The notes below the pieces were generated by a model, which was not told the origin of the DNA, did no database searches, and was given only the letters and a program-made list of their open reading frames with translations. A stretch of 64,000 nt of DNA from NCBI RefSeq assembly GCF_030068605.1, contig NZ_JASJOU010000001.1, positions 682,001 to 746,000 on the forward strand, read 5' to 3'. Origin of the DNA: Xanthocytophaga agilis. Its GTDB lineage: Bacteria; Bacteroidota; Bacteroidia; Cytophagales; 172606-1. Positions 3,769 to 59,868 of the stretch are shown piece by piece (position 1 is the first letter of the stretch; each line of letters opens with the position of its first letter). The position numbers and the translations under genes are program-made.

Positions 3769-6159
3769 TTATTCAGATCGCAATGAATTAACCGGGTTGT
3801 CAAATGCGGCTTTCATTGACCGATAGCCAACAGTAATAAGAGCAATGAATAGGGTACAAACAATGGCGATTACAAATATTCCTGGTCCAATGGTGATTTT
3901 ATATTTGAAGTCTTGCAACCAGTTGTTCATTATCCACCAGGCAATGGGTGCTGAAATTACAAAAGCTATTACTACCAGTCTGACAAATTCTTTCCCGAAA
4001 AGTCCCAGTATCTGTTGACTGCTGGCTCCCAATACTTTTCGAATACCAATTTCCTTTGTTTTCTGAACTGCCATAAATGAAACCAATCCATATAATCCTA
4101 ACCCACTGATAAAAATAGCAATACCTGCAAATACCTGAATCAGATTAAACAAGGTGTCTTCCTGTTTATAAAAATTGCCGATACGTTCGTCAAGAAACTC
4201 GTACTGATAGAGAAAGTCGGGATAGGTTTCATTCCATATTTTTTCAATTTCAGGCAATAAGGTTTTAGTTTGAGCAACATTTATTTTAACAGCGCAATTA
4301 TTATATCTATCTGCTTGAGACATAATACAGATCGGCTTAATATCTTCGTGAAAGGAGAGATTGTGAAAATCGTTGACTACACCTACAATACGTGCTGTCT
4401 TTCCCCATAATTCCAGATTTTTCCCGATAGCTTCCTGGGGTGATTTAAGATTGAGCCTTTTTATAAAGGTCTCATTGACCAGGTATTCACGGGTAGTATC
4501 ACTTGGATAAATATTGCGTCCTGCTACCAACTTTATGTCGAATGTAGATAAATACTGGCTATCTGCAGGTCTTGTATATACACTTACATGCTCTGCTTCA
4601 GGACGATTGTCGTAGTTAAAATCTGTTTCGTTATTGTTTTCAGAGGCAGGTGCTTCAAAACATAAAGAGGCATTTTGAATACCTGCTATCTGGCTTAGCC
4701 GATTTCGCAACGAATTCATCTTCACTACATCTTCTGACGGAATCGAAAGCATGACTATGGCATCTTTGCTAAAACCCAGATTGGTTTGTTTAAAATAAAG
4801 CATTTGACTGGCAACTACAATAGTTCCAATGATGAGCATTTGGGAAATGGTAAATTGAGCTACCACCAATGTGCGTCTCAGTGAAAATCCACCAATCTGT
4901 TGTTGTGTTAATTTTCCTTTCAGAGCTAGAATAGGTTGAAAACCAGATAGAATAAGTCCAGGATATGAACCTGATAAAAATACGACAGTAATTGCAAGTA
5001 ATGGAATGAATATAAGTAGTTGCGGATTTTCAACAAGATTTAGAGTAAGCTGAGTGCCAAACCAGTCGTTGACAGAAGGTAGGGCAAGCAGTGCCATTAG
5101 GTAAGCAACCAAAAATGCAAGAACAGTAACAAACCCTGTCTCTGCAATAAACTGCCAGAAGAGTTGAGTTCGTACACTTCCCAGTACTTTACGGATTCCG
5201 ATTTCTTTAGAACGTTTTAGTGCCTGAGCCGTTGCCAGATTTACAAAATTGACACAAGCAGTGATAATCAGAAATACACCAATACAACCAATTGCCCATA
5301 AGTATTTCTTTTCAACTTTACCATCATACTTACTATCAAAATGAATATCTGCCAGTGGTTGCAGGTGATACTGAACAATCTTTGCATCTTTCTTGCTATG
5401 GTACTTTTGAATAAAAGCTGGAAATACTTTGGAAACTGCTTTTGGAGATGTATTGGGATTTAATCGTATAAAACATTGCATACCACTATACGTTGACCCC
5501 CACCGATCCTCTCTTTTTGTCATCCCATCAAAGTGTTTTTTCACAGTTTCATATGAGATATAAATCTCCGTCTTACGATCTGTGTTTTTGGGTAGATCTT
5601 TTAATATACCTGTGATTTTGCACTCTGTCCGGTTATCCAAACGAATGGTTTTTCCAATGGGATTATCCTCTGAAAAATATTTCTTAGCTAGTCGCTCAGT
5701 TAATAAAACACTGTACACATTTTGTAATGCTTGTTTGGCATTGCCCTGAACCAGAGGGAAATTCATAATGTCAAAATATTCCGGTTCTACAAATGAAATA
5801 CCTTCGGACTCTGTAAATTTTTTGATTTGATTGTTGTCGCGTAAAGTAATCAGTTGTTCATCAAATGTAAGTACCCGGGCAACTTTATCTGCAAGGGCAA
5901 CATCATTCCGAAATGCTTTCCCCAGTGGATTAGGAACACCTGGCGTGAAGTCTGGACCATCTGAGTTGAACTCTGTTACAATACGATAAATCCGGTCTGG
6001 GTTTTTGTGGAATGTATCAAAGCGCAGATGGTAGTAAACCAATGTAAAGATTAGCAGACTACAACAAATACCAAGTGCCAGCCCCAGCACATTGATGAAT
6101 GTATAGGTACGATTTCGTTGCAGATTACGTAGCGCTATTTTGAAATAGTTGCGAATCAT
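3769..6159 (-). CDS. Large FtsX/MacB-type ABC transporter permease (796 aa)
   Basis: This has the same two-module plan as its neighbours: N-terminal membrane segment (about 20-42), MacB_PCD-like domain, three membrane segments around 280-410 with the motif RSKEIGIRKVLGSVRTQL, a SGSYPGLILSGFQP turn, a second extracytoplasmic domain, and a C-terminal three-segment FtsX block with TKEIGIRKVLGASSQQIL. It terminates in NPVNSLRSE. The ATG at 6159 gives MIRNYFKIALRNL, matching the start of the paralogues. A clear terminator at 6192-6225 separates it from the gene upstream, so it should have its own promoter. By its motifs (KEIGIRKVLGS, SGSYPGLILSGF) it looks nearer to the 9184-11619 gene than to the other two, which suggests two sub-lineages within the array. 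Confidence 0.9.
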   Translation of the reverse strand: MIRNYFKIALRNLQRNRTYTFINVLGLALGICCSLLIFTLVYYHLRFDTFHKNPDRIYRIVTEFNSDGPDFTPGVPNPLGKAFRNDVALADKVARVLTFDEQLITLRDNNQIKKFTESEGISFVEPEYFDIMNFPLVQGNAKQALQNVYSVLLTERLAKKYFSEDNPIGKTIRLDNRTECKITGILKDLPKNTDRKTEIYISYETVKKHFDGMTKREDRWGSTYSGMQCFIRLNPNTSPKAVSKVFPAFIQKYHSKKDAKIVQYHLQPLADIHFDSKYDGKVEKKYLWAIGCIGVFLIITACVNFVNLATAQALKRSKEIGIRKVLGSVRTQLFWQFIAETGFVTVLAFLVAYLMALLALPSVNDWFGTQLTLNLVENPQLLIFIPLLAITVVFLSGSYPGLILSGFQPILALKGKLTQQQIGGFSLRRTLVVAQFTISQMLIIGTIVVASQMLYFKQTNLGFSKDAIVMLSIPSEDVVKMNSLRNRLSQIAGIQNASLCFEAPASENNNETDFNYDNRPEAEHVSVYTRPADSQYLSTFDIKLVAGRNIYPSDTTREYLVNETFIKRLNLKSPQEAIGKNLELWGKTARIVGVVNDFHNLSFHEDIKPICIMSQADRYNNCAVKINVAQTKTLLPEIEKIWNETYPDFLYQYEFLDERIGNFYKQEDTLFNLIQVFAGIAIFISGLGLYGLVSFMAVQKTKEIGIRKVLGASSQQILGLFGKEFVRLVVIAFVISAPIAWWIMNNWLQDFKYKITIGPGIFVIAIVCTLFIALITVGYRSMKAAFDNPVNSLRSE

Positions 6160-19068: not shown

Positions 19069-19731
19069 AGTAGCTAAGTTTTAAAGTTTTCTTATGAGTT
19101 TGTGTATGAGATATTTATGATTTAGTGATGTGTATGAAAAAAGTGTACCTGTGCAATTGGACTGTGAAAGAGTGGTTATTTCTGTACCTTTTTACCCATA
19201 AACCTGTTTTTACAAGTTTATTGAGCATGAATGATCTAGTATGTTAAGACCTGATTTCGTTGGAAGAAGCTCAAATAAGAATGAGATAAGGCAGAAAAAA
19301 TTTAAAAAGTTAGTAAGTCTATCGAATTGTCTTATTGGAGAGGCAAATGATTGAAGGGAGGTACTAGGTAGATTTTTTGTTATATTTCTTTGTCGGCTAA
19401 CTGAAAGTATGGTTGGCTGATAAATTGACTGGTATTCGGATATTTCTAAAATGTGACTGGAACTCCAGTCACTGGCGAATATGAACATATTTCCAGTCAA
19501 AGTTAAAAATGAAAAGAGTTTAAATATTTTTGGAAAGTGACTAGTGTTCTGGTCAAAACAAAAAATGACTGGAATTCCAGTCATTTTTCAAAGTAATTTG
19601 ATTTTTGTTCACTTCCCTTGTTGAGGTATTTTTTTCCGGTTGCTAATCTGTATATTACCAATCTGAATATAGTTCAGATATTTTCATCTTAGAGGAGTAT
19701 ACAAGAGGTGCATGATATGTATAGGCGTATT
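19069..19731. other. Intergenic region upstream of DUF1206 gene (663 bp), no gene seen
   Basis: No convincing coding frame is present. The minus-strand frame at 19210-19584 runs through the palindromic array and has no domain or normal composition. The right third (19398-19593) is occupied by a regular 28-bp array described separately. The rest, 19069-19397, is AT-rich and should contain the DUF1206 promoter. Confidence 0.6.
19398..19593. repeat. Phased array of a dyad element, 28-bp period, 6-7 units
   Basis: Units begin at 19398, 19426, 19454, 19482, 19510, 19538 and 19566, exactly 28 bp apart. The consensus core is the 18-bp dyad TGACTGGAATTCCAGTCA, followed by about 10 AT-rich bases. Unit 19566 is a perfect dyad, extended to a 28-bp palindrome (19561-19588). 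Unit 19454 is nearly perfect. Unit 19538 is TGACTAG-TGTT-CTGGTCA. Unit 19426 keeps only the left half (TGACTGG) and unit 19482 only the right half (CCAGTCA). Units 19510 and 19398 are degenerate, yet 19510 still starts TGA. A multi-site operator for a dimeric DNA-binding protein, or a decaying tandem repeat, would both fit. Confidence 0.8.
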
Positions 19732-21398: not shown

Positions 21399-21411
21399 GT
21401 ATTGATGTAGA

Positions 21412-21459
21412 ATTACCAAAATTCTGATATTTTGTTCTTTCAATCAGAATTTCGGTAAT
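21412..21459. other. Long imperfect hairpin after the nucleoside hydrolase gene
   Basis: Arms 21412-21428 and 21443-21459 pair over 17 bp with one mismatch (ATTACCaAAATTCTGAT against its complement) around a 14-nt loop. No T run follows, so it may be an mRNA 3' end stabiliser or part of the repeat cluster in 21399-21620. Confidence 0.6.
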
Positions 21460-21470
21460 ACTCCGAGTCC

Positions 21471-21593
21471 ATCAGTTTTTTGATAATAGATGAACTCTAC
21501 CAGAAAACTGATGATTACCAAAGCCAAACAGAATTCTGATCAAAACCTGTTTTGACTAAAATATTTATTGAATAAAAATGATACCATATGGTA
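21471..21593. repeat. Cluster of short inverted repeats in convergent spacer
   Basis: Three further dyads follow the long hairpin: ATCAGTTTT/AAAACTGAT (21471-21479 with 21504-21512), CAAAAC-CT-GTTTTG (21541-21554) and the perfect 12-bp palindrome TACCATATGGTA (21582-21593). The words ATTACC and TTCTGAT recur at 21412, 21513 and 21532 and in variants near 21600. Confidence 0.5.
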
Positions 21594-59145: not shown

Positions 59146-59868
59146 TGGGATAAAGTTACTTGGTTATTGATTGTCGACAAGCGTTGTGTTTTAGCTGAGC
59201 AGATATTCCTTTATGAATGAGATGCTACTTTGTAACCCATCTTTACCAGATAAATAATTTCAGCAAGGTAATTTATGAAAACAAAGATCATCCATCCTAA
59301 TTTCTGGCTGTTCACATGATGGGGTGATTGGGATAGATGGATTAGGAAGAATTCAGCGATCTAAAATCAGCTTATAAAACTTTTTGAGCCTTTTATAACG
59401 TGTAGGTGGAGCATGCGTATAATTCTATGCACACAGCAAATGGAAGAAGCAGTTTGATTTATCTGGAAGAAAATAATCTTTGCCTGGAGTTTACCAAAAA
59501 TTGCTGATGCGTTGAATTAACCGCAAAAAAGTTTTTGCATAGAATCAACCGCAAGTTTTATGTTTGACCTGAATTCACCGCAAAAAGTTTTATGGGTATA
59601 ACTCAGTTCAAACCCTTGATTTGCATAGAAATATTCACGCTATAAGGATCTCTCAGGACAGGATCTTATTGGGTAATTAGGTGAGTTACGCTGGTTACAT
59701 ACAGTTATCCAATTGGTTACAAATATAAATACCTGTAAGTGAGGCCTGTTATACCGGTTATACTTGTTTTTTATACTCGTGAAAAGTAAGCCAGAGTCTA
59801 CACTATTTTTAATGCATAGACTCATGGTTTATATTTTTCAGTTGATAAAGCTTTTTAATAAATGTTAA
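59146..59868. other. Intergenic region (723 bp), no gene seen, contains a tandem array
   Basis: It lies between the sialidase-family gene end and the start of the YgiBC-like operon, both minus strand, so it should hold that operon's promoter near 59150-59300. The stretch 59487-59640 is a tandem array of about 28-bp units, described separately. The minus frame at 59640-59825 has no plausible features. Confidence 0.5.
59487..59640. repeat. Tandem repeats of 28-29 bp
   Basis: Three good units start at 59514, 59542 and 59571, with consensus GAATYMACCGCAAAAAGTTT, spaced 28 and 29 bp. A diverged unit precedes them at 59487, and degenerate ones follow (about 59600 and 59628). TTTGCATAGAA occurs at 59534 and again at 59620, three periods apart. 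The first unit is itself a partial dyad (GCAAAAA-AG-TTTTTGC). Confidence 0.6.

Follow-up and report, generated by a model that had tools for sequence, protein, structure and literature searches.

Operators of the 434, P22 and SinR type consist of a few sites, and iterons and parC-type centromere arrays are phased repeats that adjoin replication or HTH genes. The GTAG- and CGTC-tagged REPs of BIME mosaics are clustered, dispersed, intergenic palindromic units with a bias toward the ends of convergent and unidirectional genes, and the paper on them emphasizes GT-paired stems and roles that they may have as RNA (PMC3733652). In cluster A mycobacteriophages the repressor binds at many sites away from the early promoters, the stoperators, and related phages differ in site motif as they do in repressor (PMC6550527, PMC9283540).

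The arrays investigated here share features with each of these systems. The closest known kinds are REP/BIME mosaics with respect to distribution and stoperators with respect to possible action; neither fits fully. Unlike REP/BIME, the arrays have steps mostly of 28, 29 or 39 bp, nearly independent half-sites, and matching arrays upstream of XRE genes. As with stoperators, the site words vary with the repressor; however, stoperators are described as 13-bp asymmetric sites in phage genomes, mostly in one orientation (PMC6550527), whereas the arrays are dyad pairs of putative sites on a bacterial chromosome. Asymmetric sites oriented with transcription were not found: each unit is a pair of inverted half-sites and often lies between convergent genes. 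The reading we favor, with a probability of about 55%, is that the array in the window is a solitary copy, on the chromosome, of an operator array that serves a family of small XRE proteins of the phage-repressor type.

The window is a stretch of 64,000 nucleotides from Xanthocytophaga agilis. Seven 18-bp units start at an exact 28-bp step in a gene-free spacer of 663 bp (positions 19069-19731) whose flanking genes, PepSY-like on one side and DUF1206 (PF06724, E 3.7e-58) on the other, are both on the minus strand (Table 1). The TG..CA score of five units in 28-bp phase is 18/20 at the array and at most 15 in 20 first-order Markov sequences made from the window. The sequence TGACTGGN4CCAGTCA has eight matches with up to three mismatches in the window, three of them in the array; 100 shuffles gave a mean of 2.22 and a maximum of 6. 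The exact phasing, the single perfectly palindromic unit and the gene-free spacer upstream of DUF1206, all claimed in an earlier sequence-only reading, were borne out. No XRE gene of the array-linked family lies near. The extent it gave, 19398-19593, covers the real core units and is too short: an eighth, decayed unit follows, and the profile-defined end lies at about 19684, with decay beyond the last intact unit. The 3' end of the PepSY-like gene is 47 bp away from this profile-defined end and 149 bp away from the last intact unit. The decaying arms that it described are present in units 1, 5 and 8; because half-sites are drawn from a lexicon, however, some seemingly broken units hold another word, and decay alone does not account for them. 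Two further arrays are present in the window. The second is flanked by two minus-strand genes and contains units such as TGCGTTG-AATT-AACCGCA; the third sits between convergent nucleoside hydrolase and DUF3995 genes and was missed by a word-blind scan.

Table 1. Array units and arrays in the window, with positions counted from its first nucleotide.
Feature	Positions	Strand	Description
Unit 1	19398-19415		TAACTGA-AAGT-ATGGTTG; right half differs from the ATGGTCA word at one position; in 28-bp phase
Unit 2	19426-19443		TGACTGG-TATT-CGGATAT; left TGACTGG, right is the ATATCCG word
Unit 3	19454-19471		TGACTGG-AACT-CCAGTCA; perfect arms, AACT centre
Unit 4	19482-19499		TGAACAT-ATTT-CCAGTCA; X. flavus counterpart TGAACAG-AATT-CCAGTCA
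Unit 5	19510-19527		TGAAAAG-AGTT-TAAATAT, decayed; left TGAACAG kept in X. flavus
Unit 6	19538-19555		TGACTAG-TGTT-CTGGTCA
Unit 7	19566-19583		TGACTGGAATTCCAGTCA, perfect 18-bp palindrome
Unit 8	19594-19611		Decayed TAATTTG-ATTT-TTGTTCA, like the family unit TGATTCG-ATTT-CTGTTCA; within the profile match
Whole array, family profile	19398-19684	-	Minus when aligned to XRE-linked arrays; profile matches both strands; 3899-4185 in locus L043
Second array, TGCG-type words	59414-59639		Steps 67, 27, 28, 29, 28, 29; X. flavus counterpart
Third array, weak and decayed	21405-21562		Profile E 1.8e-11; X. flavus counterpart

The window array belongs to a dispersed family in the genus Xanthocytophaga and is not an operator peculiar to the DUF1206 gene. 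In the X. agilis genome (9.77 Mb in 66 contigs), TGACTGGN4CCAGTCA occurs 83 times with up to two mismatches, against 9 for a backwards control, and the relaxed TGACYGGN4CCRGTCA 80 times with at most one mismatch, against 1. Half-sites facing each other across the 10-bp linker number 37 against 3 for the control, and in X. flavus 28 against 1; no comparable excess was found in the other 37 of 39 relatives' genomes, where the largest was 4 against 1 (G033). A profile grown from one array detected arrays in 50 of 62 fetched X. agilis loci and 25 of 25 X. flavus loci, numbers that are not rates because loci with a hit to the motif or in BLAST had been preselected and X. agilis loci served to train the profile. 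TGCGGT-type words were found at 67 places in the X. agilis genome (control 13), and all 20 loci picked from among the listed places contain three or more units with this architecture when units are called by a permissive walk. The arrays examined were 51 of TGAC type and 20 of TGCG type in X. agilis, totals that are lower bounds (at least 51 and at least 20), and 28 in X. flavus. The sequence-only reading held that absence of the motif elsewhere would point to a random or decayed repeat, and proposed a search of the genome and relatives; with the motif repeated genome-wide and the window array at a position common to the sister species X. flavus, that objection fails. A third Xanthocytophaga genome (72% complete) gave no array match, and an XRE search of it only a 337-residue frame. 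In other taxa, 37 contig stretches contained a 1.5-unit pattern; 31 scored at most 14, five from X. flavus scored 17-19, and one from Streptosporangium carneum scored 17. The latter (L118, 7800-7885), three near-identical 28-bp repeats with the same core, is a plain tandem repeat, probably of independent origin. A full-text literature search yielded no description of such arrays among the matches listed, in which Xanthocytophaga was named in a validation list and a taxonomic paper.

A unit consists of a pair of 7-bp half-sites in inverted orientation, separated by an AT-rich centre of 4 bp, and the half-site lexicon includes TGACYGG, TGACCAT, TGAACAG, TGATTCG and ATATTCG. Among neighboring strict units no more than 50 bp apart, steps of 28, 29 or 39 bp account for 93 of 100 in the TGAC set, 51 of 55 in X. 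flavus and 62 of 69 in the TGCG set, which uses both 28 (36 cases) and 29 (26 cases) freely and has no direct step of 39. These steps correspond to 0.67, 0.76 and 0.71 of a turn modulo 10.5 bp, indicating that the rotation is kept while the distance may grow by one turn. In 256 control regions there were 28 unit pairs and no spacing occurred more than twice, although the control spacings of 124, 85, 58, 28, 84 and 56 are family-like and may represent unnoticed arrays.

Left and right halves of a unit match at 4.35 of 7 positions in the TGAC set, against 4.23 after shuffling (3.1% of 2,000 shuffles are as good), and at 3.83 against 3.95 in the TGCG set, where there is no excess. The two half-sites are therefore nearly independent draws from a small lexicon, which argues that hairpins are not the feature that is kept; the conserved stem per unit expected of a REP was not found, the slight left-right excess being confined to the TGAC set. 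These values bear on the proposal that the arrays are RNA elements, that is, hairpins or terminators transcribed at gene ends. The slight matching in the TGAC set is in its favor, as is the folding of some stretches, which surpasses that of shuffled sequence (in the window array z is -6.0 for one strand and -6.3 for the other; in L063, -3.9 and -5.9), and the palindromic unit at 19566, together with its A and T tracts, resembles a bidirectional terminator. However, the matching excess is small and missing from the TGCG set, the covariation term contributes -0.96 of -12.89 kcal/mol with two-sided changes in 7 of 37 pairs, and in 31 arrays the similarity to their own reverse complement is 6.51, compared with 6.95 to that of another array. 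We consider an RNA element very improbable, and an RNA hairpin or cruciform was rejected as the conserved feature on the grounds of half-site independence, weak covariation and reverse-complement similarity.

Arrays are located directly upstream of a gene for an XRE protein of 75-80 residues at three loci in X. agilis and two in X. flavus, one of the latter genes having an internal stop. Further XRE paralogues were identified by protein search alone, and they too are preceded by phased arrays, built from other words. A total of 27 small phage-repressor-like XRE loci were tested in the two species, derived from 31 hits after leaving out one stop-ridden sequence, one partial sequence and two frames of more than 340 residues. 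A 28-bp-phased array is present upstream of 20: at 16 the upstream TG..CA score is at least 13/16 and 28 is the sole best period among 20-40, and at four others TAAC-word units are in 28-bp phase. Among 19,516 control windows 0.6% reach a score of 13 and none reaches 14. The five class A loci were first met via their arrays; those found by protein alone have arrays in 15 of 22 cases. The 28-bp array is absent at seven of the 27 loci, two of which (L206 and L242) score 13 at period 29, and with a strict palindrome score 28 is not singled out at many loci, L211 and L243 for instance being beaten by other periods. The family thus has inverted half-sites upstream of XRE genes, as in 434-type systems, while the window array is without such an XRE gene nearby. 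Like operators of the 434, P22 and SinR type, the XRE-linked arrays are putative palindromic operators adjoining a repressor-like gene, but the arrays comprise up to about a dozen sites at a near-constant step and mostly lack an adjacent regulator. The natural solved structures that best match the XRE profile are 434 repressor and SinR, and P22 C2 was also matched.

The half-site words vary with the recognition helix of the XRE protein. VAQGNLSS helices are associated with TGAC, TGAA and ATAT words, TAQGNLSS with TAAC, INQSNIST with TGCGGT and TGCGTG, LGQSNISQ with TGCGCAT and TGCCGTG, MGQGNISK with TGAACAG and TGAACGG, and LGQSNISA with mixed words. The third base of the word is A in 26 of 26 cases for QGN helices and C in 25 of 36 for QSN helices, and words and helices are correlated overall (Mantel r 0.50, 20 of 720 permutations), with the words of classes A-D and F read by eye, those of class E by a TG..CA rule, and some units overlapping. 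Solitary arrays combine words of several XRE classes, so a rule of one repressor for one array does not hold.

Among 291 genomes of the order, matches to the XRE proteins with E below 1e-30 occur only in X. agilis and X. flavus; at E 1e-10 nine genomes have matches, those beyond the two species being no better than 1.3e-15 and mostly in longer frames. Viral relatives of the XRE proteins (29-40% identity) lack arrays, with one of 49 upstream regions reaching 13. The module proteins that were profiled include a BT4734/PriCT/VapE-type primase-helicase, AAA_25, an Amidase_2 endolysin-like protein and an HTH_17 protein; O/DnaD-like replication, Holliday-resolvase and DUF6633 families were matched more weakly. 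The modules thus seem to derive from phages, and any one of them has just a subset of these genes. One module recurs at L042, L063 and L211 and contains a small coiled-coil-looking protein, an O/DnaD-like protein, a protein with a sub-threshold DUF6633 match, an array and an XRE gene; the array and XRE parts of it were read at L246 and L247 in X. flavus. Palindromes resembling GTAGGGGC...GCCCCTAC were seen by eye next to some XRE-linked arrays (upstream of the array at L063 and L042, at 4235-4270 of L087, and in the upstream region of L207) and recall published GTAG-tagged REPs. The gene neighborhoods also bear on the idea of centromere-like or nucleoid-organizing sites, at each of which an array would nucleate a filament as parS or parC arrays do. 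Many dispersed copies exist and phased arrays adjoin a small HTH gene that could autoregulate, and, as with iterons and parC-type arrays, phased repeats adjoin replication or HTH genes. Related TGCG words, however, occur with two replication gene types (L199; L202-204), and no partition gene is among the 15 profiled module proteins, which are a minority of the neighbors; we regard this explanation as highly improbable.

Placement relative to genes was determined with gene calls from a custom hexamer scorer trained on the window. The 51 X. agilis arrays occupy 23 convergent, 26 tandem and 2 divergent gaps, compared with 8, 48 and 32 among 88 background gaps of 150-2500 bp (convergent excess, P 1.7e-6), and in the median they lie 84.5 bp from 3' ends, compared with 240 bp from 5' ends. 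The 28 X. flavus arrays are similarly distributed (14 convergent, 12 tandem, 2 divergent, against 6, 25 and 20 of 51; P 3.4e-4), and the bias is weaker for the TGCG set (7, 11 and 2 of 20, against 3, 25 and 11 of 39; P 0.023). Such placement, with divergent gaps avoided, argues against ordinary promoter control across the family. The window array could still be a multi-site promoter operator of the DUF1206 gene, given that it occupies part of the spacer preceding that gene and that X. flavus has the array too. Against this, its start is 330 bp from the gene start, the placement across copies (2/51 divergent versus 32/88, and closer to 3' than to 5' ends) is not that of promoters, and the array type recurs at dozens of places beside genes of differing size and strand; this candidate was rejected as extremely unlikely.

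Dispersed palindromic units at gene ends are what is seen with REP/BIME elements, and the convergent and tandem placement is as reported for REPs (PMC3733652). The arrays may accordingly be selfish or neutral repeats of this kind, 28-bp tandem repeats that spread long ago and are decaying at insertion-tolerant gene ends without a bound protein or a function. The comparison of the two species is relevant here. Eighteen array positions, defined by at least one flank aligning at 88% or more, are common to X. agilis and X. flavus. Array identity between the species is mostly like that of the flanks. Half-sites diverge less than linkers when all loci are counted (89/1372 versus 68/714, P 0.014), but the difference disappears once three loci with poor or odd alignments are left out (36/1008 versus 18/514, P 1). 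Site constraint is therefore not robust, purifying selection on the sites is not established, and a neutral relic is a serious rival. Interspecies indels near multiples of 28 (gap totals of 57, 57, 55 and 111 at four loci) also fit tandem-repeat slippage. What a neutral repeat leaves unexplained is why this architecture recurs, in different words, in front of XRE paralogues, and why the step changes from 28 to 29 or 39 and seldom to other values. Recent insertion is likewise not seen: in a 183-kb colinear block all four arrays found in X. agilis have an X. flavus counterpart, one of them shortened, and recent transposition was rejected, as no empty site was found there and the one apparent absence proved to be the shortened array. 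Overall we see the neutral-repeat explanation as possible, if on the unlikely side.

Two further observations concern the history of the arrays. In a rearrangement between the species (L045 and L082 versus L188 and L189), both breakpoints are at arrays and the flanks of two arrays have been exchanged; a 45-kb interval lies between two arrays in X. flavus, its ends meet at one array elsewhere in X. agilis, and it appears to have been excised or moved. Such exchange suggests that arrays at times act as recombination points. Debris of phage-like modules was rejected as the source of solitary arrays: of 90 solitary loci, eight had a match at E 1e-5, either to module-recurrent genes (those present at no fewer than three of 11 module loci) or to one of two XRE sequences. 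Four of these matches were to one large protein family not tied to arrays, and the other four were to an XRE open frame starting in array DNA, in the array or 13-58 bp past its edge.

Returning to an XRE operator family, the dispersed arrays and those directly upstream of XRE genes in phage-like modules have the same architecture. Together with the matching words and the co-distribution, this makes XRE binding the simplest account, and solitary arrays probably bind XRE dimers. The sequence-only reading had proposed, as an alternative to a decayed tandem repeat, a multi-site operator for a cooperatively binding dimeric regulator. Its general idea stands, in that the array is phased, operator-like and fits a dimeric HTH protein. 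A DUF1206 promoter operator is unlikely, and in place of the TetR/MarR-type candidates it named, the likely binders are phage-repressor-type XRE proteins. On each 18-bp unit an XRE dimer would bind with one subunit per half-site. Because neighboring dimers would be set at a constant rotation of about 0.7 turn, they could contact each other and coat the array cooperatively. Within modules, binding to the array would autoregulate the xre gene. At solitary sites by gene 3' ends, judging from placement and from the analogy with stoperators, the coated array may be a roadblock to read-through transcription or a repressor sink. The arrays would be old and vertically inherited, with whole units lost or gained and with occasional use as recombination points. 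A more far-reaching version, which we consider doubtful, is chromosome-wide addressing: module-borne XRE paralogues would read a shared 7-bp lexicon, and more than 70 mixed arrays, mostly at gene ends, would be platforms that, coated by homo- or heterodimers, stop read-through or retain the modules' repressors, and would thereby link the borders of host genes with mobile-element immunity.

If XRE proteins bind the arrays, mobile-element repressors would have dozens of multi-site platforms on a bacterial chromosome, all outside promoters. Two usually separate topics, dispersed intergenic repeats and the specificity of phage immunity, would then be joined, and the correspondence between half-site words and recognition-helix residues would provide a natural code for testing XRE specificity and dimer mixing.
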